Of a stretch of 64,000 nt of DNA, positions 21,978 to 39,266 are shown one piece after another. Numbering within the stretch: the first letter of the stretch is position 1; each line of letters starts with the position of its first letter. The stretch comes from Pseudobythopirellula maris. Lineage in GTDB: Bacteria; Planctomycetota; Planctomycetia; Pirellulales; Lacipirellulaceae. The translations under genes and the position numbers were made by a program. Location: the NCBI RefSeq assembly GCF_007859945.1, contig NZ_SJPQ01000001.1:1700489-1764488 (forward strand), read 5' to 3'. Under the pieces are notes generated by a model. That model worked only from the letters and a program-made list of their open reading frames with translations. It searched no databases and was not told where the DNA came from.

Positions 21978-23321
21978 TCACGGTTGCTGAGTGATCCTCA
22001 CCGTCAGTTCCCCCGAGTTCTCCGCGAGCCCCGCCTCGCCGTCGTTCACCCGCAAATAGAGCGTTCCGGAAAACCCCGGCCGCAGCGTGGCGCCGAGACC
22101 AACGGGCGTAGGAGCCGCAAAGCCCCCCGATGAGTCGACCGTCGCGGTGTTCGCGGTGGGCGGATCGACCGCGGCGAGCAGCTCGCCCAGCGGCCGGCCG
22201 TCGCGCCAGGCGAGCGTGACCCCGCCCGGCTCGCACGGCCAAGGGGTTCCGTCCGGCTCGGCGGCGACGCGAAAGCGGCCCTCAGCGGTGAGCCGGTAAG
22301 CGCGGCCCGCCTCGACCCGAACGCCACTAGACTGCCAGCCGCGGTCGGCGGCGACTTGCGTCGTGTGCGGCCGATCGCCCATAGCCGAGCCGTCGCGAAA
22401 GTCGATCGCCTCGCGCTCGTAGTCGTAGCCGTAGCCCACGGCGTGGACATACTGCCGCCACTCGGCCTGAAGGTCTTGCCAGTCATCGGCATAGGCCGTG
22501 CGGAAGCGTTCGTTGAAGTCGCTCCACAGCACGTTGTGGTGCAGCGCGCGGAACCGCTGGCGGTAGCGCGGGTGCGTGTCGAGCCACTTGGCGAGCGCCC
22601 AGGTCCAGGCGTACGACTCGGCCGGCATCGCCGAGCGGTTGTCGAGCCGCATGACCGCTTCGATCGGGAGGCCGCGTCCTCCCTCCACCGCGTCGCGGAC
22701 CAACCGGGTGCGGCCCCACATCCGCGCGTCTTGCCGCGAGGCGGGGATGACGCCGAGCGTGAGCTCGCCGCTGGCGGCGTCCCAGCGGTGGGTGCCGCAG
22801 AGCTCGGCGACGCCCTCCATGTACCACCCCGGCCCGCAGCCGCCCAAGAGCGTGGCCATGAAGGCGTGAGTCCCCTCGTGCAGCAGCAGGTGGCGACGGT
22901 AGTAGTCGCTCGGTTGATCAACGAGCCAGATCTCGGCGCCGAGGTTCAGGCCATCGGGGAAATCGCGTTCGGGCGTGAGGCCGAGCGCGTCGAACCGCGC
23001 GCGATCGCCCATCAGGTAGGCCCGCGCCCGCCAGCCGTCGAGTCGCTTGCCGTCCACGCCAAACCGCTCGGCCCACAGCGGCGTGGCGGCGTCGAAAAGG
23101 GCGCCAAGCGTGTCGACCGCCGACGACGGGGCCAAGTCGGTCACCAGCGTGAGACGCTCGCTCTGAACGATCCGCAGCCCGGCCCGCTCCAGACGCCGGG
23201 CGTCGAGCCCCCGAGGCTGCGGCCAGAGGGCGGGCTCGGCCCGCCGCTGCGCGACGGCGGCCGTCGTCGCGAGGCATAGCGCCGCGGCGACGATCCATCG
23301 GAAACAAACAGAGTCTGGCAT
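21978..23321 (-). CDS. Secreted gluzincin-type metallopeptidase with a LecA-like C-terminal domain, 447 aa
   Basis: Signal peptide at residues 1-24 (ending AAVAQ). The zinc site is HEGTH (His148, Glu149, His152) with the downstream helix [10 protein letters not shown], whose Glu169 or Glu173 supplies the third ligand. This is the gluzincin pattern, similar to planctomycete DUF1570-like proteins. Residues about 340-447 look like a LecA/PA-IL-type beta-sandwich: [25 protein letters not shown], and [12 protein letters not shown] followed by [10 protein letters not shown]. The protein may bind a glycan and cut an attached peptide; this is inference. It starts at ATG 23321, 17 bases after the stop of the giant AsmA-like gene, so the two are probably cotranscribed. 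Confidence 0.8.
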
Positions 23322-23338: not shown

Positions 23339-26300
23339 TCAGTTCGAGCGCAACCGGTCGAGCAACCGGCCGAGGCCTTGGTCGATGGCGCCGGCCGCCG
23401 CGCTCTGCAAGAGGTCTCGTGAGAGCTGCTTGACCGCGTCGGAGTTGACCTGCGGGCGGTCGAACGTGCCGGCGATGGGTATTTGAATCGCCTTGCCCTT
23501 GAGGCCCGCCAAGATCACCGGCCGCTGCGCCACCCATTCGTCTAAAACCGGCACGCTCAGGAGCAGGTCGAGCGTTTCGTCGGCGCCGACCGAGCCTTGC
23601 GATTGGATGATCACGTCGCCCAAGGCGAACTCGAGCCCGCTGTGGTAGACCCGTCGGTTGGCCAGCTGGAAATCGATCGCCCGGTCGTTGATGAGCAACG
23701 CGGCGGACGTGCCGCTCGCCGTCGGCGCGGCTTGGCCGCCGATCAGAGCGCCGAGGTTCTCGCCACGCACGAGCGACTGCACCTGCTCGGCGAGCGCGAC
23801 CCACTGGGCGACGCTCGGCCCCGGCGCCACGCGGGCCGAGTGGACCCGCAGCTGGCCGGTGGCGCGGCCGGCGGCCACGTCGGCCGCCGGGGCCGTGAAC
23901 TCGGTGAGCGCCATGCTGAATTGACCGTCGACCCGCGTGGCGTCGGCCAGCACCGGGGCGATGAACTTCAGCACCTTCTCGGCCACCTGCGGCGAGATCG
24001 CCACGTTCGCGACCACCGGGCCCGGCGCGACCGACACGAGCGCCGGCTCGGGGTCGAGCCGCATGCTGGGTTGCGTGGTGAAGCGGCCTTGGCCGACGGT
24101 GAAGTCGAGCGGCTCGAACCGCACGGCGCCCTCGCCAAGCACGGCCGCCACGCGGCCCGGTCCCAGGGCCAAGCCAAACAGATCGCCCGACTGCCACGGC
24201 GCCTCGACGCGCCCGACCAATCGCCGCGACCAATGCGTCGCGTCGGCGCCGGGCGGCGGCGTGGGCTGCGAACCGGCCGCCGCGTTGGCGATCTCGAACC
24301 GCGCCTGGTCGCGGCCGATCAAGCGGACGGCGCCGCCCAGCTGCGGCAGCAGCAACGCGGAGAGTCGCTCGAGGTCGTAGTCGATCGCCCCGGCGAGCCG
24401 CACGGCGCTGAGCTGCGCGGGGCGGTCGATCTGGCCGCTGGCCGTGGCGCTGAGCGACCGGGCGTTGAGCTGCATGGTGCGGAGCTCCACGCGATCGAGG
24501 GGAACGAAGTACACCGCCTCGCACGCTAGGTCGGCGGTCGGTTCACTCCACACGACGCGCTGGGCGGCGCCGGGACGCGTCTCGCGGAGTTCGAGCCCGG
24601 TCCCTTTAAAGTTGGCTTGGGCCGCGAGCGGCGCGGAGCCGTCGGCCTGAGGCTGCGCGGCGAGGAGCACCGTCCCCTCGATCTCGCCCGCCATTTGATA
24701 ACTGGCCGCACCGGGGGCGGCAGGCGCGGCGCCGGTAAACCACCCGGCGAGCTGTTGCAGGTTGGTGCGGATGGCGAACTCGGCGGCGGGTGGCGCGGCG
24801 CTCGCGTCGCTGAGCGGCAGCTGGAGGTTGCGCGCCCGGATCGCCGCCGAGCTGCTCACCAGCTGCGCCGCGTTGGAGCGGACCAGCCCGCTGGCGTTGT
24901 CCCACGCCAGCGAGCCGGTGGCCTCGACCTGCGGCTCACGGATCCACAGCGGCCCGGACCGGAGATCGAGGTTCGTGCAGCTAACGCGGGCGTCACGCAG
25001 CTCGCCCCCCTGGGGGCCAACGACGCCCGTGGCGGTCGCCTTGAGCGCGCCGGCCAGCTGCAAATCGGCGGCGCTCGGCAGCGAGGGAGAAACGAGCCGC
25101 AGGCGGCGGAGCCAAGAATCGAGCTGGCCCTCGACCGTCAGCTGGAACGGGGTCGGCGCGCCCGGCGTGGCCTCTTGGCCGGAGATCGCCGCCTGCAGTC
25201 GGTCGACACCCGAGGTGAGCGTGAGCGCGCCAGAGTCGACGCCGCCCAGGCCCGAGGCGAGCGACAGCCCGGCGCCAGACGCCTCGGCGTCGAAACGCAA
25301 GCTGCTCTCGTCGGCGATCGTCGTGTCGCGGTAGGCGACGAGCACGCTCGCCGCCTCGCCTCGCGCTTGCAGCCGCAGCGGGCCGCCGGGCGCGGCGTGC
25401 TCGTAGCGGAACTCGGCGTCGCCCCGCCCCGCGCAGCGCCACTCGGTGAGGTCGACGAACTGGCCGAGCTGCGTGGCCAGCTGGTTCAGGTCGAAGGCGA
25501 GTTTGCCTTGCCCTTGCAGGGCGTCGCCGCTCAGGCTGGCCGAGAGGAACCCCGACTCGCACTCGAGCGATTCGATCACCGTGCGTCCGGCCACGCTTGT
25601 GGCGACGAAGTCGGCCTTCAGCGGCGCGTCCCAACGGAGCGGCTGGCCGGCGGCGACGCCGGCCAGGTCTTCGGTCCGCAGCGTGCCAGTGAGCCTCGGC
25701 CCGGCGGGGCCCTGTGTGCTGATGACCTCCAAGGCGACCTGGCCCGACTCGATGCGCACGTCTTCCCTGAGCCGCAGCACACCCGGGGCGACGGCGCCGA
25801 AGCGCGCCAGGTTCAGCTCGGTGTTGAATTTCAGGTCGGCGGGCGGCTCGCGCGAACCGGCCCCCCACGCCTCGAGCTCCTGGTCCGACACGCTGCCGGT
25901 GACTCTGGCCCGGCCGATGTCGGTCGCCGCCTCGAGCTGCTTGATGAGCAGCCTTCCTCCTTGGGCCGTGAGCCGCCAGGGGATCTCGACAGCGTTCATC
26001 CTCAGCGGCACGCCGCCGGTGGGGGCGCCGGCGGCCTCGATCGTGGTGACGCGCAGCTGGCCGGCCGCGTCGAGACCGTGGCGGACCATCTTGGCGAGCG
26101 TGGCGAGGGGATTCACCGGCGCGGGCGGGGCGGCGGGCGCGGCGGAGGGGACTCCCCAGGTCGCCTCGCCTTGGCCGTCGACAACGCCGATCAGCCGGCA
26201 TTCCGGGTCGATGCGCCGCACGAGCGGCGCCACGGCCGACAGCGGCAACGAGGCGGCGGTGAAGCGGGCGCGCTGCACGCCGTCGGTGCCCGGCAGCAAC

Positions 26301-26992
26301 TCGAGAGCGAAGTCGCCCGTCTGTTGCATCGGCGCCCCCACGGCGGTCACAACGCCGAGCCGGCCCTCGGCCTTCAGGCCGATCGCGTCGAGCCGCTTGG
26401 CCTGTTGGGTGAACGTGGCGTTGAGGCCGTCGGCGAGCCAAATCTCGTCGGTCGTCAGGTCGTTGATCCGGAGCATCCCGCCCTGGACGTCGACCGCCAC
26501 CGGCCGATCGGCCGAAGGCGGCAGGCCTTGCTCGATGCGGCGCAACTCACGCTCGGTCTCGATCTCGTCGAGCCGCGTGAGCAGCCGCTCGATCCGTGAC
26601 GAGCCGCCCGGCTCGTACTCGAGCAGCGCGGTGGGGCGATCGACGCGAACCACGCCGATCTCCTCGCCCGTGACGAGTTGCAGCAAACTGCGGTCGATCC
26701 GCACCGCCTCGGCCGTGGCGATCACCACCCCTTCGGGGTCGAGCACCTTCAAGCCGGTGAGCGTGGTGGGGCCGGTCCAGCTGAGCGAGCCGCCGGCCAC
26801 GGTGACCGAGCCCGCTTCGGCGGGGATCGCCTTGGCGAGCAGGGCGTCTTTGATCGGCGTGTTCAGCGCGATCGTCGGGGCGGCCATCACAAGCCCGGCC
26901 AGTGCTAGCAATACGATCGCCAGCCGCCACTTCGCGCGGCTACGGCCGCGGTGGCGGGGCTCGGTCGCAGTCGCTTCGGGGGCGCGCGGCAT
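23339..26992 (-). CDS. Giant AsmA/TamB-like membrane-anchored protein, 1217 aa
   Basis: A basic cytoplasmic N-terminus, one transmembrane helix (about residues 22-44) and about 1,170 residues of repetitive beta-rich sequence with many short Gly-x-Leu strands, ending QGLGRLLDRLRSN. This layout fits the AsmA-like superfamily, long beta-groove proteins thought to move lipids between membranes. The C-terminal part (FQLANRRVYHSGLEFALGD, then LLLSVPVLDEWVAQRP) resembles AsmA-like C-terminal regions. The assignment rests on layout and composition rather than a single motif. It is the first gene of a likely pair with the secreted HExxH protein. Confidence 0.75.
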   Translation of the reverse strand: MPRAPEATATEPRHRGRSRAKWRLAIVLLALAGLVMAAPTIALNTPIKDALLAKAIPAEAGSVTVAGGSLSWTGPTTLTGLKVLDPEGVVIATAEAVRIDRSLLQLVTGEEIGVVRVDRPTALLEYEPGGSSRIERLLTRLDEIETERELRRIEQGLPPSADRPVAVDVQGGMLRINDLTTDEIWLADGLNATFTQQAKRLDAIGLKAEGRLGVVTAVGAPMQQTGDFALELLPGTDGVQRARFTAASLPLSAVAPLVRRIDPECRLIGVVDGQGEATWGVPSAAPAAPPAPVNPLATLAKMVRHGLDAAGQLRVTTIEAAGAPTGGVPLRMNAVEIPWRLTAQGGRLLIKQLEAATDIGRARVTGSVSDQELEAWGAGSREPPADLKFNTELNLARFGAVAPGVLRLREDVRIESGQVALEVISTQGPAGPRLTGTLRTEDLAGVAAGQPLRWDAPLKADFVATSVAGRTVIESLECESGFLSASLSGDALQGQGKLAFDLNQLATQLGQFVDLTEWRCAGRGDAEFRYEHAAPGGPLRLQARGEAASVLVAYRDTTIADESSLRFDAEASGAGLSLASGLGGVDSGALTLTSGVDRLQAAISGQEATPGAPTPFQLTVEGQLDSWLRRLRLVSPSLPSAADLQLAGALKATATGVVGPQGGELRDARVSCTNLDLRSGPLWIREPQVEATGSLAWDNASGLVRSNAAQLVSSSAAIRARNLQLPLSDASAAPPAAEFAIRTNLQQLAGWFTGAAPAAPGAASYQMAGEIEGTVLLAAQPQADGSAPLAAQANFKGTGLELRETRPGAAQRVVWSEPTADLACEAVYFVPLDRVELRTMQLNARSLSATASGQIDRPAQLSAVRLAGAIDYDLERLSALLLPQLGGAVRLIGRDQARFEIANAAAGSQPTPPPGADATHWSRRLVGRVEAPWQSGDLFGLALGPGRVAAVLGEGAVRFEPLDFTVGQGRFTTQPSMRLDPEPALVSVAPGPVVANVAISPQVAEKVLKFIAPVLADATRVDGQFSMALTEFTAPAADVAAGRATGQLRVHSARVAPGPSVAQWVALAEQVQSLVRGENLGALIGGQAAPTASGTSAALLINDRAIDFQLANRRVYHSGLEFALGDVIIQSQGSVGADETLDLLLSVPVLDEWVAQRPVILAGLKGKAIQIPIAGTFDRPQVNSDAVKQLSRDLLQSAAAGAIDQGLGRLLDRLRSN

Positions 26993-27323: not shown

Positions 27324-29588
27324 TCACAGCTCGAAGTTGAACGTCCTTGTCATGTAACGCCATAGGCGCTGGGCCAACGTGCGTGGTTTGATGTGGATCT
27401 TGGCCTCGCCCACTAGGCCGACGCGCATCAGCTCGTGGGCCCGCTTGCCGTCGTCGTCGAGGCGGTCGTAATCGGTGAGCGGCACGATCGCCTCGAAGTG
27501 GGGGGTGAGCGGCTTGGGTGTGCCGCTGTCGTCGGCCTGGGTCGGCACGTCGCCGCCCGACAGGCTCGAGAGCCGCGGCGGCGTGGCGGGCATCTCGACA
27601 CGCGAGAGGCTCTCGATCTTGCCCAGGTACGCCAAGTCGGTCGACTGCCGGAGCATCATCTCGACTTGCTGGTCCTCGCTCACCAGGTCGATGTCGTTCT
27701 GCTCGATGGCGAGCCGCGCCTCGAGCCGACGCGGGTCGCCGATCTGGCAGAACCGCACGCCCACCTCAAGCGACGCGCCGAGGTTCCGCTGGTCGAGCGG
27801 CGTGCCGTGCCAGGCGGGCAACTCCTTGACGCTCTTGCCGGGAGGGGTCACGTATGTCGGCGGGATCACCCGGCCGGCGATCGGCGCATGGAGCACCAGC
27901 CGCTCCTTGTCGCGCAGCTGCTGAGCGAGCTGCTCCTGGGCCGACTTGAGGCTCTTGAGCGCGGGGTCGATTCGCGCCGAGGCGCGGGTGTCTTGGTAGC
28001 TGCTGGCGCGCAGCGCGGCGATCTGCGCCTCGGTCACCGCGATCTGCCCCTCCAGACGCACGACCTCCAGGTCGATCGACTCGTTCACCAGCCGGGCGAG
28101 AGGCTGCCCCGCCTCGACCAGGTCGCCCGATTTGACGAAGACCTCCTCGAGCAGGCCGGGGGCCTCGACGTAAACACTCTCGGCGTCGTGCGCGGCGATC
28201 GTCATCGGGCAGTAAACGGCCGACGGCAGCGGCACGAACGCCACGGCCGAGAAGGCCGCCGCGACAACGAGCAGGGTGATCGCCAGGGGCAGTCGCTTCA
28301 CCTTGTGGATCCTCCCGGGAACCTTGAAGTACTTGTAGAGCTTCCAGACCGGCTGGCCCACGAGGCCCCACACCGCGGTGCAGGCGATCAGCTGGCCGAG
28401 CACCTTGAGCCCGTAAGGCTCGAACACCTTGTTGAGGAAGTAGAGAATCGATAGCACAACGACCCAGCGGTAAAGAGCCGACGCCACGGTGAACAGCGCG
28501 AAGAACGCCTGGTTGCTCTTGGGCAGGAACGGGTCTTCGGGCTCCTCGAGCCCGAGGCACCACTTGCCGAGCTTGCGGCTGAGGATCGAGCTCGCCTTCT
28601 GCCGCAGGTTGGGGATCTCGAGGTAGTCGCTGAGAATGTAGTAGCCGTCGTATCGCAGCAGTGGGTTTGCGTTGAACAGGATCGTGCTCACCGAGCTGAC
28701 GAACATGACGTACAGGCAGAGGTAGTTGAGCAGCCCCGGCTCGGTGAACCACCAGACGAACGTGCAGATCGAGGCCAGCACAACCTCGACGTACATGCCG
28801 GCCGCGCCGATCGCCATCCGGTGCCAGCGGCTCGGCAGCATCCACGAGTCGCTCACGTTGCAGTAGGGGCACGGCGTGAGCACCAGCAGCATGAGCCCCA
28901 TCTCGTGGCACTCGCCGCCGAAGTGCTTGCACGAGAGCCCGTGGCCGAACTCGTGCATCGTCTTGGTCACGACGACGACCGCCCCCACCAGCAGCCAGTT
29001 TTGAGCCGAGAAGAACGTGTCGAACTCCGGCAGCTTGGACTGGAACACGTCGAACTGTACGAGCACCAAGGCGGCCGCGGCCGCGACGATTGTCAGGCAG
29101 CCGTAGAGCGCCGCCTTAGTGAAAAACCACGCCACCCACGGGTAAAGAGCGCTGAGCAGCCAGTCGGGGTCGATGCCCTTGAACTTGATCGCCAGCACGT
29201 TGGAGAACTTGGCGAGCGTCTCCTTCTTGCGGCGTTCGTCGCGGCGTTTCTTGAGCTGCTCGCCCTGGCCGCCGGCGTCGGCCAGCACCAAGCCGTTGCG
29301 GTGCAGCGTGCCGATAAAGTGCTGCAGTTCCTCGCTGCGGATCGTCTGCGGCGGGAACTCGGCCTCGAACCGCTCGGCGACCTCGTCCAGGCTCAACTCG
29401 CCGTCGAGCATCTGCAGGATGGCGAACTCCTCTTCCTCGAAGCGGAAGTACTGCAGCGCCACGGGGTCTTTGACCACCCAGTAAGTGCGGCCTTGGTAGC
29501 GCTGCTTCTGGGCCGTGAGGTCGGGCCGCGCCCGCACCGCCAGCCGCCTGCTGCTGCTCGAGACGAGGCTTTGGGTGAGAGTGGCCAT
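27324..29588 (-). CDS. PqqD-like / M50 metalloprotease / HlyD fusion membrane protein, 754 aa
   Basis: Three modules. Residues 30-105 form a PqqD/RRE-like winged helix (YWVVKDPVALQYFRF, then MLDGELSLDEVAERF), a fold that binds leader peptides in RiPP systems. Residues 150-460 are a multi-pass M50 site-2-protease core with HEFGH (His212, Glu213, His216) and the partner motif NPLLRYDGYY (Asp314). Residues about 480-754 form a HlyD-type adaptor with a lipoyl-like hairpin (VEAPGLLEEVFVKSGDLVEAGQPL), a coiled coil and a barrel. This resembles YydH/SkfC-type proteins. It probably processes or exports a peptide with the two upstream adaptor genes. No ABC transporter or precursor peptide is visible. 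Confidence 0.88.
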   Translation of the reverse strand: MATLTQSLVSSSSRRLAVRARPDLTAQKQRYQGRTYWVVKDPVALQYFRFEEEEFAILQMLDGELSLDEVAERFEAEFPPQTIRSEELQHFIGTLHRNGLVLADAGGQGEQLKKRRDERRKKETLAKFSNVLAIKFKGIDPDWLLSALYPWVAWFFTKAALYGCLTIVAAAAALVLVQFDVFQSKLPEFDTFFSAQNWLLVGAVVVVTKTMHEFGHGLSCKHFGGECHEMGLMLLVLTPCPYCNVSDSWMLPSRWHRMAIGAAGMYVEVVLASICTFVWWFTEPGLLNYLCLYVMFVSSVSTILFNANPLLRYDGYYILSDYLEIPNLRQKASSILSRKLGKWCLGLEEPEDPFLPKSNQAFFALFTVASALYRWVVVLSILYFLNKVFEPYGLKVLGQLIACTAVWGLVGQPVWKLYKYFKVPGRIHKVKRLPLAITLLVVAAAFSAVAFVPLPSAVYCPMTIAAHDAESVYVEAPGLLEEVFVKSGDLVEAGQPLARLVNESIDLEVVRLEGQIAVTEAQIAALRASSYQDTRASARIDPALKSLKSAQEQLAQQLRDKERLVLHAPIAGRVIPPTYVTPPGKSVKELPAWHGTPLDQRNLGASLEVGVRFCQIGDPRRLEARLAIEQNDIDLVSEDQQVEMMLRQSTDLAYLGKIESLSRVEMPATPPRLSSLSGGDVPTQADDSGTPKPLTPHFEAIVPLTDYDRLDDDGKRAHELMRVGLVGEAKIHIKPRTLAQRLWRYMTRTFNFEL

Positions 29589-29595
29589 GGGGAAC

Positions 29596-29695
29596 GGCGA
29601 AAGTGGAAAACGGAAAGGCGAGTAGCAGGGTGATCAAGAAATGGGATGTTCTCTCGAGCTCCCTTTTCCACTATCGCCTTTCGCCTCAGAAATCA
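29596..29695. repeat. Inverted repeat between the M50/HlyD and HlyD genes
   Basis: The arms GGCGAAAGTGGAAAACGGAA (29597 onward) and an imperfect complement ending TCGCCTTTCGCC (29695) are about 45 bases apart. It lies in the 134-base gap just upstream of the M50/HlyD start and could influence its expression. Confidence 0.5.
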
Positions 29696-29722
29696 CACGG
29701 CCGCCGCACGAGAGGCGGGCGC

Positions 29723-30718
29723 TCAGCGCCGCGCCGCCGCCACCCCGCCGGTGTCCAGATGGATCGTCATGTCGGCGAACATCTGCGGCATGATCAGCCA
29801 GCGGCCGTCTTCCTGGCGGTTGGCGATCTCGGCGCGCACGCGGAACATCGGCCGGCCGTCGTACTCGGCCACCGGGTGGATGTGGACGATGCGGCCGGTG
29901 GCCTCGATGGGGTCTCCGGGGCCCACGTTGACCGAGACGGTCACCTCGCAGCCGTCGACCTGACGCGGGTCGTAGTCGTCAAAGTAGAGCCGGCCCTCGG
30001 CTTGCAGCGTGTCGCGACGAATGACCCGCACGATCGTGTCGCCCGGCGAGACCCACTCCTGCTGGTCGCGGAGGATCTCGATCACTTGGCCGTCGAACGG
30101 CGCCCGCACGATGCGGCGCTCGCGGGCGAGTTCGGCGAGCTTGAGCTCGGCGCGCTTGGTCTGGGCGTCGTAGCCGGCGAGGATCTGCTCGTTGCGAGCC
30201 TTCTCGGCGCCGAGCTTCGAGCGGTCGAACTCCAGCTCGGCGCGGCGGATGTCGGTGTTGGTCACGGCTTTGACGACCGACGCGTTGGCGTCCTTGAGCT
30301 CTTGCAGATCGGCGAAGGCGACCCGGGCCGCGGCGGCGGAGTAGCGTTCCTCGATGTCATCGTTTGCGCGTTTATTGGCGGCGTTGTAAGCGAGCACCGC
30401 GACCTCGAACTGCTGTCGCACCTCGCTGTCGTCGATCTTGGCGATCTCTTGCTCGGCACGGACGTAATCGCCGAGCTTGACCCCCAGGTAGGTGAGCACC
30501 CCCGGCTCCGGAGCGGGCAGCTCGACATCGTCCACCAGACCGATCAAGCAACGCCCGATCCGCGGGTGGCCACCTTCGCCGGGCGCCGCTATGGGCGCCC
30601 CGCCATCGGGGCCCGCCGGCAAGCCGAACTGCTGCGCAACCGCAGCGCGGGCGGGCAGCAAGAGCAGCAGCAACACCGGCAGCCGGGCGGCAGCCGTTCG
30701 CATCGTGGCGGTGTTCAT
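29723..30718 (-). CDS. HlyD/RND-type periplasmic adaptor, 331 aa
   Basis: Signal peptide at residues 1-28 (a leucine run ending AAVAQ). A membrane-fusion adaptor follows: a lipoyl half-motif (LPAPEPGVLTYLGVKLGDYV), a long alpha-hairpin (about 95-190, rich in Lys/Glu/Ala), the second lipoyl half (IVRAPFDGQVIEI) and a beta-barrel. The family bridges an inner-membrane pump to an outer channel. The ATG at 30718 is chosen because GAGGA precedes it by about 7 bases; ATG at 30703 is an alternative. It lies between two other HlyD-containing genes on the same strand, 134 bases before the M50 gene. No pump gene is adjacent. Confidence 0.85.
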   Translation of the reverse strand: MNTATMRTAAARLPVLLLLLLPARAAVAQQFGLPAGPDGGAPIAAPGEGGHPRIGRCLIGLVDDVELPAPEPGVLTYLGVKLGDYVRAEQEIAKIDDSEVRQQFEVAVLAYNAANKRANDDIEERYSAAAARVAFADLQELKDANASVVKAVTNTDIRRAELEFDRSKLGAEKARNEQILAGYDAQTKRAELKLAELARERRIVRAPFDGQVIEILRDQQEWVSPGDTIVRVIRRDTLQAEGRLYFDDYDPRQVDGCEVTVSVNVGPGDPIEATGRIVHIHPVAEYDGRPMFRVRAEIANRQEDGRWLIMPQMFADMTIHLDTGGVAAARR

Positions 30719-30885
30719 GATTGCGTCCTCGCGTGGGAGGGTGGCTCGCGCCGAGGGGGGCGACGAGCTCAGGCCCCGGTGCGGGTGATCGGATGGAATC
30801 TTATGCGGCAGGCAAGCGTAGCTCGTCGGCCCGGTCGCAGGGGCCGTCACACCCGGCACAACCGGAACCGGTCACGCCTGAGAGC

Positions 30886-33000
30886 CTACAGCCGGAAAAG
30901 GATTTTCGAGCGGATAAAGTCGATCAGGTCGTGCAAATAAACATAAGCGAGAGGCCTCTGCCCGCAGTGGACCTTGGCCTTCACCTCGGCGCCGACTTTG
31001 GGGTTCGCGATCAGCGAGCGGAACTTCTCTTGGTCGAATTCGACGGTCAGCAGCACCGTGTTGCCCTCTTCGCCGCGAACCTCGGCCGTGGCCGCAACGC
31101 CCTTGGCGTGCAGCACTCCCTCGAGCGGGGTCTCGGTCGTTGTGGCGAGCAGGAAGCTCACGGGAAGCTCGCCGCCCGACTCGCTTAGCGCTTGGGTGAT
31201 GTGGCCCATCCGCTTGTCGGGCATGCTGATCTCGAGGATCCACTCGCCCTCGGGGTTGGCCACCTCCATCAGCACTTGGCCCTGGGTCACGGGCCGTCCG
31301 CGGAGCTGCTCGTCGACCTTCCAGGTGATCACCTTGCCGGCGATCGGGCTCTTGACCGTCAGCTGGCGCTGCTTCTCGTCGAGAACCCCCTGCTGGATCC
31401 GGAGGTTGTTCAGTTGCTCGGTCAGCTGCGTGATGCGGCTCGACTTCTGATTGCGTTCGCTGGCGTTAACCCCCCGGCCGCTGAGCGTCTCGCGATCCAG
31501 CGAGTGCCACTCGCTCTGGGTCTCGCTGATCTTGCCGCGCAGGGCGGTCTGCTCCTGCTCCAGGTCGAGGCTGCGGAGCTCGACGAGCGTTTGCCCCTCG
31601 ATCACTTGCTGCTCGTGCTCGGCGTAAACCGCCACCACGTCGCCGCTCGTCTTGGCGAACACGTTGTGCATCTCGAGCGGGCGGAGCTTGCCGTCGCCCT
31701 CGAGCGCGAAGTCGCGCGGCACAACCAGCGAGGCGACAATGGCGCCCACGATCGCGGCCGTGATCAAGATCGTCTTCGGCAGCGTGCGGGCGCGGAACAT
31801 CCAGGTCGACTTGCCGAGCGCCTTCCAGAGCGGCATGAGAAACAGGCTCTCGTGCTCTAGCGCGTTCGAGAGCGCCGTGCTGCTGTGCGACCGCACCACG
31901 TCGACCCGCTGAGAGAAGCCCTCGGGCGGGGTGGCGTCGACCATCTGCTCGACGATCAGCACGCCGATCACCTCGGGCGGCTTGTGGCGGCGCGACTCGG
32001 GGTCGTCCGGCGTGGGGTCCACGTCGCCGTCGCCGCGGGTGAGCGGCAGGATCGCCATCGCCTTGGTGTGCGACTCGTCGACGTACGCCTCGAGTGTGCG
32101 TTCGACCTGCGGGGCCAGGTCGCTCGTGTCGCCGGTGTACCAGACCTCTTCGCCGGTCTTGGCCACCGCGCGGGCGACCTTCGTGAGCATGGTCATCACG
32201 TTCGACCGCGAGTCGGGCACGTCCATGCCGCTGACCGCATCGATGCGGACCCGCCCGCCGCGTTTGACCGCCACGGTCACCCGGTCGGCGCCGATCAGCC
32301 GGCGGCCTTCGTTGGCGATCGAGTAGGCGGTTTCGCGGGTGTCGAGTTTTTCGTGGGCCGTGCGGGTGAAAGCCTCGAGCTGCTCCCACAAGGTTTGCTT
32401 GTCGGCCAGGTGCCGCAGTCGGCGGCCGCGCAAGTAGTCGCCCGCCAGGTCGCAGGTTTGCTGCAAGAACCGCAGGTAGCCGCGCTGCACTTGCGAGCGT
32501 CCGCCGGGGCGCTGGAACACCTCGACCACGCCCTGCGGGCCCTCGTCGTTGTGCACCGGCGCCAGCACGAGCAGGAAGTCGGTCGGGTTGGCGGCCGCGT
32601 TCTCGTCTTCGGTGTCGAGACCGCCGGCGGCGCCGGAGTGGGGGGAGATGATTGTCCCCTCGTCGCCCTTGAGCACCTGCTGCAGTAAACGGCCGTGCTG
32701 CGCCTGGCCGATGGGATTCTGGGCGAGGCCGGTCTCCCGCAGGTTGATCTGGTAGGTGAGCTGAAACGCGCCGGTGTCGGAGAGGGTCCACACCGCCCCG
32801 CCCGGCGCCGCCAAAGCGGAGACCACCTTGTTCAGAAACTTGTCGTAGTAGACCTCGGGCGAGATGTCGTCGCGCGACATCTCGCTGATCTGCTGCACGA
32901 TGCCCGTGATCTCGCGCTTGGCGCGTTGCACCGCGTCGGCGTCGACCGAGGCGGTCGACGAAGAGGCGTCGGGCTGATTGGTGTAGTCGGAGGTGCTCAC
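30886..33000 (-). CDS. GAF-domain sensor fused to a HlyD-like adaptor, 704 aa
   Basis: The cytoplasmic N-terminal half has two GAF-like regions: about 50-195 (with FLLVLAPVHNDEGPQGVVEVF) and 210-385 (with IGADRVTVAVKRGG and VIGVLIVEQM). One transmembrane helix follows at about 412-432 (TILITAAIVGAIVASLVV). The outer half is a HlyD adaptor with lipoyl halves (VFAKTSGDVVAVYAEHEQQV, TVKSPIAGKVITWKV) around a coiled-coil hairpin. A ligand-sensing domain on an export adaptor is unusual. It probably lets a cytoplasmic signal gate assembly of the machinery encoded downstream. The start is GTG at 33000. It is first of the trio, 167 bases upstream of the second adaptor. Confidence 0.85.
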   Translation of the reverse strand: MSTSDYTNQPDASSSTASVDADAVQRAKREITGIVQQISEMSRDDISPEVYYDKFLNKVVSALAAPGGAVWTLSDTGAFQLTYQINLRETGLAQNPIGQAQHGRLLQQVLKGDEGTIISPHSGAAGGLDTEDENAAANPTDFLLVLAPVHNDEGPQGVVEVFQRPGGRSQVQRGYLRFLQQTCDLAGDYLRGRRLRHLADKQTLWEQLEAFTRTAHEKLDTRETAYSIANEGRRLIGADRVTVAVKRGGRVRIDAVSGMDVPDSRSNVMTMLTKVARAVAKTGEEVWYTGDTSDLAPQVERTLEAYVDESHTKAMAILPLTRGDGDVDPTPDDPESRRHKPPEVIGVLIVEQMVDATPPEGFSQRVDVVRSHSSTALSNALEHESLFLMPLWKALGKSTWMFRARTLPKTILITAAIVGAIVASLVVPRDFALEGDGKLRPLEMHNVFAKTSGDVVAVYAEHEQQVIEGQTLVELRSLDLEQEQTALRGKISETQSEWHSLDRETLSGRGVNASERNQKSSRITQLTEQLNNLRIQQGVLDEKQRQLTVKSPIAGKVITWKVDEQLRGRPVTQGQVLMEVANPEGEWILEISMPDKRMGHITQALSESGGELPVSFLLATTTETPLEGVLHAKGVAATAEVRGEEGNTVLLTVEFDQEKFRSLIANPKVGAEVKAKVHCGQRPLAYVYLHDLIDFIRSKILFRL

Positions 33001-37400: not shown

Positions 37401-39266
37401 ATGACCGCCCTTCTTACTCGCAACGCAATCGTCCAGGGCGATTGCGTCGAACTCCTCAGCCAGCTCGAAGACGAGTCCGTCGACTTGGCGTTCGCCGACC
37501 CGCCGTTCAACATCGGCTTTAAGTACGACGAGTACCACGACCGCCACGAGGACGAGGTGTACCTCTCCTGGTGCGCCGAGTGGTTCGGCGAGCTCTACCG
37601 CGTGCTCAAGCCCACGGGCGCCTTCTGGCTGGCGATCGGCGACGAGTACGCCGCCGAGCTGAAGGTGGCCGCCAAGGAGATCGGCTTCTCGCCGCGCAAC
37701 TGGGTTGTGTGGTACTACACGTTCGGCCAGAACTGCCGCAAGAAGTTCAACCGCTCGCACGCCCACCTGTTCCACTTCGCCAAGGACGAGGAGCAGCACA
37801 CGTTCAACGCCGACGACCCGGCGGTGCGTGTCCCCTCGGCCCGCGCGCTGGTGTACGGCGACAAACGCGCGAACGCCACCGGCCGCCTGCCGGACGACAC
37901 CTGGATGCTGCCTCCCGTGCGTGAGCAGAACGACTGGGTGCTGCGGCCCCAAGACCTGCGCGAAGACGCCGGCGCGTTCTCCCCGCTCGACGACACGTGG
38001 TACTTCTCACGCGTGGCCGGCACGTTCAAAGAGCGCGAAGGCTTCCACGGCTGCCAGATGCCCGAGCAGTTGCTGGGGCGCATCGTCCGCGTGAGCAGCA
38101 ACCCGGGCGACTTGGTGCTCGACCCGTTCGGCGGCAGCGGCACCACGCTCGCCGTGGCCAAAAAGCTGGGCCGCGATTGGCTCGGCTTCGAGCTCTCGAG
38201 CGAGTACGCCAAGTACGGCAACGAGCGGCTGGAGCGATGCAAGGAAGGCGACCCGCTCAACGGCCCCGCCGACCCGGTCGAGAGCTCGCCCACCACGGCC
38301 GCCGGCCGGCGGCTGAAGGACCACCCGCTCACGCGCGACAAGGAGCAATTGCTGCCGACGTTCCGCAAAGAGGACTTCTCACAGCCCGAGCCGCCCGCCG
38401 ACGACGACGCCGTCGCCGATGTAGCGACCACCAACGGCGCCCCCGCCGCGGCGGTGAAGACCGATCTGCGGGCGCTCTTGCGCGAAGCGATCGTCGGGGC
38501 GTTCTCGGCGGCCAACGAGGGGCACAGCGTCGATTGGCTGCTGTGCGACCCCGCCCTGCAAGACGCCTTTCACGCCGCCTGCGGCGAGGCGGGGCTCATC
38601 GGCGGGCCCAGCGACTGGAACCGCGAGCTGCTCAGGCTGCGCAAGGCGGGCAAGCTCGCCAAGGGCCGCGGCGCCGGGGCGCCGATCGACTTCTCGCCCG
38701 AGGCGACCGATCACTTTCGCTTCGCCGCCGAGATGGCGTGGGCCGACGCGATGAAGAAGTACCCCGGCTGGTCGCTCGACGCGATCTTCTGTTCGCCCGG
38801 CAAGGCGCTCTACTTCGACCGCTCGGCGATGAAGCACCTGCCCGCCGCCGTGGCCAAGGAGATCGGCGCCGCGCCGCTGCGCTGGGCGGCGCTCAAGCTC
38901 CGCAAGGCGCGCCACGCCCTGGCGGCCGAGGCGCACCAGTACCACTACGTGCTCGCGACGCGCGACTTCTCGCGTTTCCACCCGTGGGGCCGCTGCCGCT
39001 TCGACAAGTGGGAGGGCCAGCCCGGGCTCTACTGCCTCCGCAGACGCGACCGCTCGGCTGTTTACGTCGGCGAGGCCGACGACCTCGGTGCGCGGCTCGC
39101 CACGCACGCCTCGGCCAAAGCGCCCGGCCGGGTGATCTCGCAAGTGGCCGTCATCACCGGCGATGAACTGCCAAGCGACGAGTACCGCGGCGCCCTTTGG
39201 ACCTCGCTCGTACGCCGCTACGAGCCACGGCTGAACGTCGAACCGGCCAAACCGCCCGCCGAATAA
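37401..39266 (+). CDS. DNA methyltransferase (amino-group type) fused to a GIY-YIG-like domain, 621 aa
   Basis: Residues 8-285 are a complete beta-class adenine-N6/cytosine-N4 methyltransferase: catalytic DPPFNIG at 33-39 and SAM-binding DPFGGSGTT at 241-249. After a Pro/Asp-rich linker (about 325-352), residues 355-535 form an unidentified region that may set DNA specificity. Residues 540-615 resemble a GIY-YIG domain: GLYCLRRR (542-549), AVYVGEADDLGARL with YVG at 555-557 and Arg565, and a terminal YEPRLN. The glutamate expected three residues before the L-[IV] pair is replaced by Trp600, so cutting may be lost. No restriction gene is adjacent. The ribosome site GGAGG ends two bases from the ATG, unusually close. 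Confidence 0.82.
   Translation: MTALLTRNAIVQGDCVELLSQLEDESVDLAFADPPFNIGFKYDEYHDRHEDEVYLSWCAEWFGELYRVLKPTGAFWLAIGDEYAAELKVAAKEIGFSPRNWVVWYYTFGQNCRKKFNRSHAHLFHFAKDEEQHTFNADDPAVRVPSARALVYGDKRANATGRLPDDTWMLPPVREQNDWVLRPQDLREDAGAFSPLDDTWYFSRVAGTFKEREGFHGCQMPEQLLGRIVRVSSNPGDLVLDPFGGSGTTLAVAKKLGRDWLGFELSSEYAKYGNERLERCKEGDPLNGPADPVESSPTTAAGRRLKDHPLTRDKEQLLPTFRKEDFSQPEPPADDDAVADVATTNGAPAAAVKTDLRALLREAIVGAFSAANEGHSVDWLLCDPALQDAFHAACGEAGLIGGPSDWNRELLRLRKAGKLAKGRGAGAPIDFSPEATDHFRFAAEMAWADAMKKYPGWSLDAIFCSPGKALYFDRSAMKHLPAAVAKEIGAAPLRWAALKLRKARHALAAEAHQYHYVLATRDFSRFHPWGRCRFDKWEGQPGLYCLRRRDRSAVYVGEADDLGARLATHASAKAPGRVISQVAVITGDELPSDEYRGALWTSLVRRYEPRLNVEPAKPPAE

Follow-up and report, generated by a model that had tools for sequence, protein, structure and literature searches.

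A locus of GAF-HlyD, M50-HlyD and HlyD genes, sometimes with TolC, was described in bacteria that include planctomycetes as lying beside a gene for a secondary SecA_DEAD protein and as having no ABC transporter (Kamneva, Poudel & Ward 2015; PMC4452313). Among the loci covered there is META1p2399-2402 of Methylobacterium extorquens AM1. That work reported no substrate and noted cases in which SecA was unlinked, and its text makes no mention of a PqqD or RRE part (PMC4452313). The three genes studied here, from the 64-kb stretch of DNA that was analysed (the window), match this locus, with adjacent GAF-HlyD, HlyD and M50-HlyD genes and a secondary SecA_DEAD elsewhere in the genome. The three protein types and SecA are shared; SecA is unlinked in the genome of the window, however, and a substrate is proposed here. 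The original prediction that the set was undescribed was thus overtaken by the 2015 publication.

Daptide clusters were discovered by way of RREs joined to site-2 proteases near precursors with the conserved motif ELExMEAP. Removal of the daptide leader is attributed to MpaP, an RRE-dependent intramembrane peptidase, whereas the leader mutations were assayed using the RRE of MpaB (PMC10036551). Gene 3 of the window trio shares with MpaP an N-terminal RRE fused to M50, and ELExMEAP is comparable with the motif [FLV]ExLEPR of the linked proteins described below. Daptide precursors, however, are short and are modified by an aminotransferase, dehydrogenase and methyltransferase, whereas here HlyD is fused to the protease and the linked proteins are giant. 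This enzyme set was absent among the genes adjoining the window trio. The best-scoring named family for gene 3 was the daptide RRE-site-2 protease (NF041824; 2.5e-57, 194.8 bits against a cut-off of 300), and the YydFGHIJ-like epipeptide model NF058609 gave 43.1 bits against a cut-off of 225. Membership of the daptide or epipeptide families was rejected, both scores falling under the curated cut-offs.

Type I secretion (HlyB-HlyD-TolC) is comparable in its HlyD adaptors, in the TolC of related loci and in very large repeat-protein cargo, but differs from the trio, which has no ABC ATPase and is associated with an N-terminal rather than a C-terminal signal, a secondary SecA and an RRE-protease. 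In the Gram-positive accessory Sec system, SecA2 serves special, often very large surface proteins. The use of a second SecA for special large surface proteins is a likeness, whereas the LEPR proteins considered here have no hydrophobic signal peptide, and the envelope to be crossed, by way of HlyD/TolC parts, is Gram-negative. LEPR-XLL (NCBIfam NF012209), a 24-residue N-terminal domain of the linked giants, has been catalogued as a domain, and the open-access literature connected no export machine with it. No publication joining the LEPR motif to the SecA/HlyD/M50 locus was found in the open-access literature, so prior work is possible. Neither the genes nor the LEPR domain are new in themselves; what is likely new is their connection, with the RRE as its likely basis.

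Architecture of the trio and the RRE-M50 protein

The three genes are adjacent on the minus strand and are transcribed in the order GAF-HlyD, HlyD, RRE-M50-HlyD (Table 1). Reading frames and Pfam matches, with HlyD in all three proteins (3/3) and Peptidase_M50 in gene 3 (4.2e-7), agree with the arrangement originally predicted. The adaptor part of gene 1 matched LipC and MacA-type adaptors in profile searches, and that of gene 3 matched MacA, MexA and other adaptors in Foldseek (E 1e-12). Gene 2, a homologue of which is present in 36 of the loci read, probably starts at the ATG at 30718, the upstream GTG being disfavoured. Two GAF regions had been predicted in gene 1; the one at residues 221-357 is firm, but the N-terminal one has no Pfam match in 205 residues. 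Weak N-terminal GAF matches occur in some homologues of gene 1, and a second, N-terminal GAF is plausible from sequence.

Table 1. Positions of the trio, its parts, neighbouring genes and related genes elsewhere (numbers without prefix, window; prefix C, same genome; prefix L, other loci)
Feature	Position	Strand	Description or evidence
Gene 1, GAF-HlyD protein, 704 aa	30886-33000	-	Cytoplasmic GAF part, one membrane helix, periplasmic HlyD part
GAF domain of gene 1, residues 221-357	31930-32340	-	Pfam GAF 3.1e-7
HlyD/lipoyl-type periplasmic adaptor part of gene 1, residues ~440-695	30916-31683	-	HlyD_D23 7.3e-8, HlyD_3 2.2e-6
Gene 2, secreted HlyD/RND-type adaptor, 331 aa, N-terminal signal peptide	29723-30718	-	HlyD_3 3.2e-16
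Gene 3, RRE-M50-HlyD fusion, 754 aa	27324-29588	-	Pfam and alignment; full model pLDDT 83
Predicted RRE/PqqD-like domain of gene 3, residues ~16-105	29274-29543	-	AF2 model and fold matches
HEFGH zinc-protease motif of gene 3 (H212, E213, H216)	28941-28955	-	Invariant in alignment
NPLLRYDGYY, second M50 motif of gene 3 (D314 invariant)	28638-28667	-	Alignment
Periplasmic HlyD/MacA-like adaptor part of gene 3, residues ~453-740	27369-28232	-	HlyD_3 1.4e-7
Secreted protein with HExxH-like stretch	21978-23321		No Pfam match
Protein of ~1,200 aa, AsmA-like by eye	23339-26992		No Pfam match; co-directional with trio in part of family
IF-1-like protein, 74 aa	33351-33575		Divergent to trio; beside trio in much of family
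Conserved secreted protein, ~577 aa	33845-35638		No confident domain; beside trio in 16 loci
N4/N6 adenine-type DNA methylase	37401-39266		Weak C-terminal GIY-YIG match in one protein
Secondary SecA_DEAD gene	C1:573912-575099		Frame 670 aa
Second trio	C1:356-360 kb		M50 34% identical to that of window
DUF3467 gene	C2:284882		
Family with core PLYFEExNxERYG ... LGHYRPG	L062:2511-3041, L069:6813-7862, L071:10861-11646, L075:10628-11200, L076:10799-11371		No known domains; adjoins paralogous trios of the order
Large Ser/Thr kinase genes	L076:16496-19000, L077:10759-16725		Near paralogous trios; one with WD40 repeats
DUF3467 or PilZ small genes	L139:7082-7561, L140:7969-8310, L136:10519-10929, L138:9174-9605		Between giant and GAF/HlyD gene
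E. coli plasmid NZ_CP081687, giant and operon	L095:2330-15709, L089:466-6761		Cadherin/Ig protein, 4,459 aa, with DUF4347

By sequence, the N-terminal part of gene 3 matches PqqD weakly (Pfam 0.007, under the cut-off). An AF2 model of residues 1-125 (pLDDT 84) consists of a three-stranded sheet and three helices, matching solved RREs, and the top Foldseek match was PqqD (5sxy). VIA-align placed TbiB1 with leader peptide first (Z 10.2, 86 aligned, rmsd 2.9 Å), followed by TfuB1 (Z 10.0) and PqqD (Z 8.4); because unrelated rows also reach Z 9, the rank order of the fold matches weighs more than the Z value. A family profile additionally finds TfuB1 (3.8e-5) and PqqD (0.002) by sequence. An RRE/PqqD fold, as originally predicted, is therefore supported by structure prediction and profile alike, and binding of a leader peptide is predicted from it.

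The active-site residues of the M50 part are intact, with H212, E213, H216 and D314 invariant in 29/29 aligned homologues from Planctomycetota, Alphaproteobacteria and an E. coli plasmid. The HExxH and NPxxxxDG-type motifs lie in membrane helices, and this bears out the M50 protease core. Judged by these motifs, the M50 part is probably a site-2 protease, for which proteolysis is predicted.

The presence of RRE and M50 domains, with similarity to the daptide protease and more weakly to YydH/LiaK, would also fit a RiPP-like system, in which the RRE binds and the M50 enzyme cuts a short precursor that leaves through the HlyD parts. The neighbourhoods argue against this. In the loci read, no conserved open reading frame of at least 40 codons that could encode a small peptide lies beside the trio, the sole conserved short neighbour being the IF-1-like gene. 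No RiPP tailoring enzyme is found beside the window trio, the daptide and YydH/LiaK family models score far under their cut-offs, and the genes linked in other loci are giants. A RiPP-like role is very unlikely. The set does resemble a machine for processing and export that includes a sensor-type subunit, as first envisaged. The RRE fold and conserved M50 site stand, and the small-peptide cargo gives way to giant proteins as the likely substrate. Several other genes flanking the window trio were considered as conserved partners (the AsmA-like gene, the HExxH gene, SHMT and LysA) and set aside; they are kept in part of the family only and look like local synteny.

Giant LEPR-XLL proteins as candidate cargo

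All 59 relatives searched (59/59) have matches to the trio, and in almost all of them there are near-full-length homologues (44-67% identity). The order GAF-HlyD, HlyD, M50-HlyD is shared by nearly all of the loci that were read. This distribution and fixed gene order argue that the trio is an ancient, conserved system and not a chance arrangement. Homologous loci in several phyla adjoin very large genes, with open frames of up to ~14,000 codons, and the large proteins beside paralogous trios share an N-terminal motif (e.g. LEPRRVLDA, LEERRVLSA). Over 32 cases, one of which (from L231) is probably a chance match, the consensus is [FLV]-E-x-L-E-P-R-x-L-L-S-A-D, corresponding to LEPR-XLL (NF012209), at a median position of 37 and after a mostly basic stretch. 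Among the loci read, the motif was present in 28/71 large non-core trio neighbours and in 1/233 other genes, the single exception being a giant, cut short, that itself belongs to a trio locus; an internal control stretch gave 0/304. Most LEPR proteins lack a classical signal peptide, judged by the hydropathy of their first 60 residues, which peaks at a median of 1.1 compared with 2.3-2.4 in TolC and HlyD proteins. On alphaproteobacterial plasmids, M50-HlyD homologues lie behind annotated LEPR-XLL genes (frames of 12-39 kb), which stand first in operons with HlyD, M50-HlyD, SecA or TolC genes. When written as [FLV]-E-x-[LM]-E-P-R, the consensus shares the core [hydrophobic]-E-x-[L/M]-E with the daptide ELExMEAP, and the L196 case reads LEAMEPRILLAADP; the resemblance, noticed after the fact, is no more than suggestive.

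The genome of the window itself encodes nine LEPR-type proteins. The LEPR model gave nine matches at a lax threshold, four of them above the cut-off; with 24 residues, NF012209 misses variants, and several real cases in this genome score under the cut-off. Eight matches are N-terminal in long frames (LEQLENRVVLSAD, LEQLEPRLVMDGA, FEGLESRVMLDAA, LEQLEQRCVLSAD, VEPLESRIALSAA, LESLEDRRMLSAS, VETLEPRRVLSLT and IETLEPRNFLAAN), and the ninth protein is a PKD-repeat protein beside a second trio (RRLEPRRVLDA). The remaining model match, in a 61-codon frame, was set aside.

Co-occurrence was surveyed in 294 genomes of the planctomycete phylum, using E < 1e-100 for M50-HlyD and E ≤ 0.02 for LEPR. Both were present in 48 genomes, M50-HlyD only in 52, LEPR only in four and neither in 190 (Fisher p ~2e-22, a whole-sample value inflated by relatedness, which partly confounds co-occurrence). 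The association persists within families that hold both states (CMH p 3.6e-8), LEPR being found with and without M50-HlyD in 8/9 against 0/5 genomes of family f24 and in 4/4 against 2/25 of family f44. A comparable distribution was found in 281 Gammaproteobacteria (26 both, 15 M50 only, three LEPR only, 237 neither; p ~6e-23, again a whole-sample value inflated by relatedness), where the two genes lie within 10 kb of each other in 13/26 genomes. A LEPR protein is present in 45/49 genomes picked for the full locus, with open frames reaching 14,390 codons, against 29/281 in the background class sample. The genome tables were entered into the tests by hand, and single misreadings leave the orders of magnitude unchanged. 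About half of the M50-positive planctomycetes have no NF012209 match, and five planctomycete genomes carry several M50 copies, which may be specialised.

Motor, outer-membrane partner and the core copy

The genome of the window encodes a secondary SecA_DEAD protein (Table 1) besides the SecA at C3. Its Pfam matches, in a further difference from the Gram-positive accessory Sec system, do not include a wing-scaffold domain, and its gene lies more than 1 Mb from the window trio rather than adjacent as in the locus of Kamneva et al. Linkage is close in other phyla. Of 80 loci from Proteobacteria, Nitrospirota and one Omnitrophota bacterium, 75 have a secondary SecA and 76 an N-terminal GAF/HlyD-type partner beside the M50 gene. 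Across the planctomycete phylum, 87 genomes have both M50-HlyD and at least two SecA_DEAD matches, 13 M50-HlyD only, 35 the SecA matches only and 159 neither, a strong association, although some second matches may be split SecA genes. All of the sampled genomes of the order to which the window belongs (16/16) have a secondary SecA and an M50-HlyD gene. A secondary SecA is probably the energy source of the window system.

As to an outer-membrane partner, which the original prediction had proposed to look for, TolC genes are linked in some trio loci only, with none beside the window trio. Patchy linkage is usual for TolC. No ABC, RND or MFS pump was identified among the window neighbours scanned or in annotated homologous operons, in keeping with the predicted ABC-free locus. 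The same result weighs against a role in drug or metal efflux, with the three proteins as an adaptor set whose M50 and GAF parts would act as stress regulators. The HlyD parts do resemble RND and MacA adaptors, but efflux leaves the RRE and the LEPR association unexplained and is scarcely credible here.

No LEPR gene, SecA or TolC lies within the 64-kb window, so the association of this copy with them rests on genome content. The window trio is the unlinked core copy of the order and would serve LEPR proteins encoded elsewhere on the chromosome. The second trio of the same genome adjoins a TolC-type gene (OEP 6.5e-25) and the PKD-repeat LEPR giant. In locus L060, a probable orthologue of the window trio (M50 51% identical, the best match of that genome) is preceded by a secondary SecA and followed by one small gene and then a cyclophilin/cadherin/cohesin protein starting VEALEVREVFDAA. 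These neighbours tie the core lineage, and not only its paralogues, to the same partners. Two further kinds of gene near paralogous trios, a family of proteins with no known domains and large Ser/Thr kinases, are listed in Table 1.

The core copy might instead have left giant export for housekeeping, either envelope maintenance or the export of one protein, with only the linked paralogues exporting LEPR giants. Such a role would suit a single core copy present in nearly every genome of the order, beside the IF-1-like gene in much of it, and the core-copy genomes that have no LEPR match at the threshold used (e.g. G049, G185 and G262). However, LEPR variants escape the model, and in G049 the core trio has SecA immediately before it and a LEPR-like protein (VEALEVREVFDAA) two genes further downstream. 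The core copy has kept its RRE and M50 residues just as well, and the secondary SecA is kept in every sampled genome of the order. Housekeeping is therefore judged unlikely, if less so than the RiPP-like and efflux roles, and export of LEPR proteins is the preferred role of the core copy.

Proposed export route

Domain content, the RRE fold prediction, active-site conservation, gene order and the strong genomic association with LEPR giants and SecA, as established here, make it likely that the trio forms the inner-membrane and periplasmic core of an exporter dedicated to giant LEPR-XLL proteins that have no signal peptide. The exporter would be ABC-free, probably SecA-driven, and of HlyD/TolC type. 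In the proposed route, the cytoplasmic RRE of the RRE-M50-HlyD protein would bind the LEPR leader. The unfolded chain would be driven through the inner membrane by the secondary SecA ATPase, whose gene lies elsewhere in the genome, with SecYEG or the M50-HlyD protein itself as candidate paths. A periplasmic duct would be formed by the three adaptors of HlyD type, probably joined by a TolC-type protein, as their families and the linked TolC genes suggest. The intramembrane M50 site, whose conservation points to a catalytic role, would cleave off the leader while export proceeds or once it is complete. Possible gating or sensing by the GAF part is the weakest step.

More tentatively, and with somewhat less confidence than doubt, a distinct class of Gram-negative secretion can be envisaged, in which an RRE would read the N-terminal LEPR leader of proteins of up to ~14,000 residues and an intramembrane M50 protease, fused to a periplasmic adaptor, would take it off. 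Transport through the HlyD/TolC duct would then be powered by a SecA-like ATPase in place of an ABC pump. If the proposed steps were shown, a class of its own would be deserved. The export route of giant bacterial surface proteins that have no signal peptide is often unexplained, and the SecA-linked locus of 2015 has so far had no substrate. The link proposed here supplies candidates for each side, LEPR-XLL as the tag and RRE-M50-HlyD with a secondary SecA as the machine, and makes the question directly testable in culturable bacteria. If true, it would place a RiPP-type peptide-recognition domain at work in protein secretion.

Two minor observations concern loci outside the window. Between the giant and the GAF/HlyD gene lies a small gene whose product is a DUF3467 protein in some loci and carries PilZ in others; a chaperone function or a c-di-GMP input is possible, and the genome of the window has one DUF3467 gene (Table 1). 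On E. coli plasmid NZ_CP081687, the cadherin/Ig giant carries an N-terminal LEPR-like motif (ALESRQLFDGAA) and heads an operon of TolC, two HlyD genes and an M50-HlyD gene; the annotation of the stretch read includes no SecA. Of 5,426 E. coli genomes, 24 have the M50-HlyD gene, mostly on plasmids.
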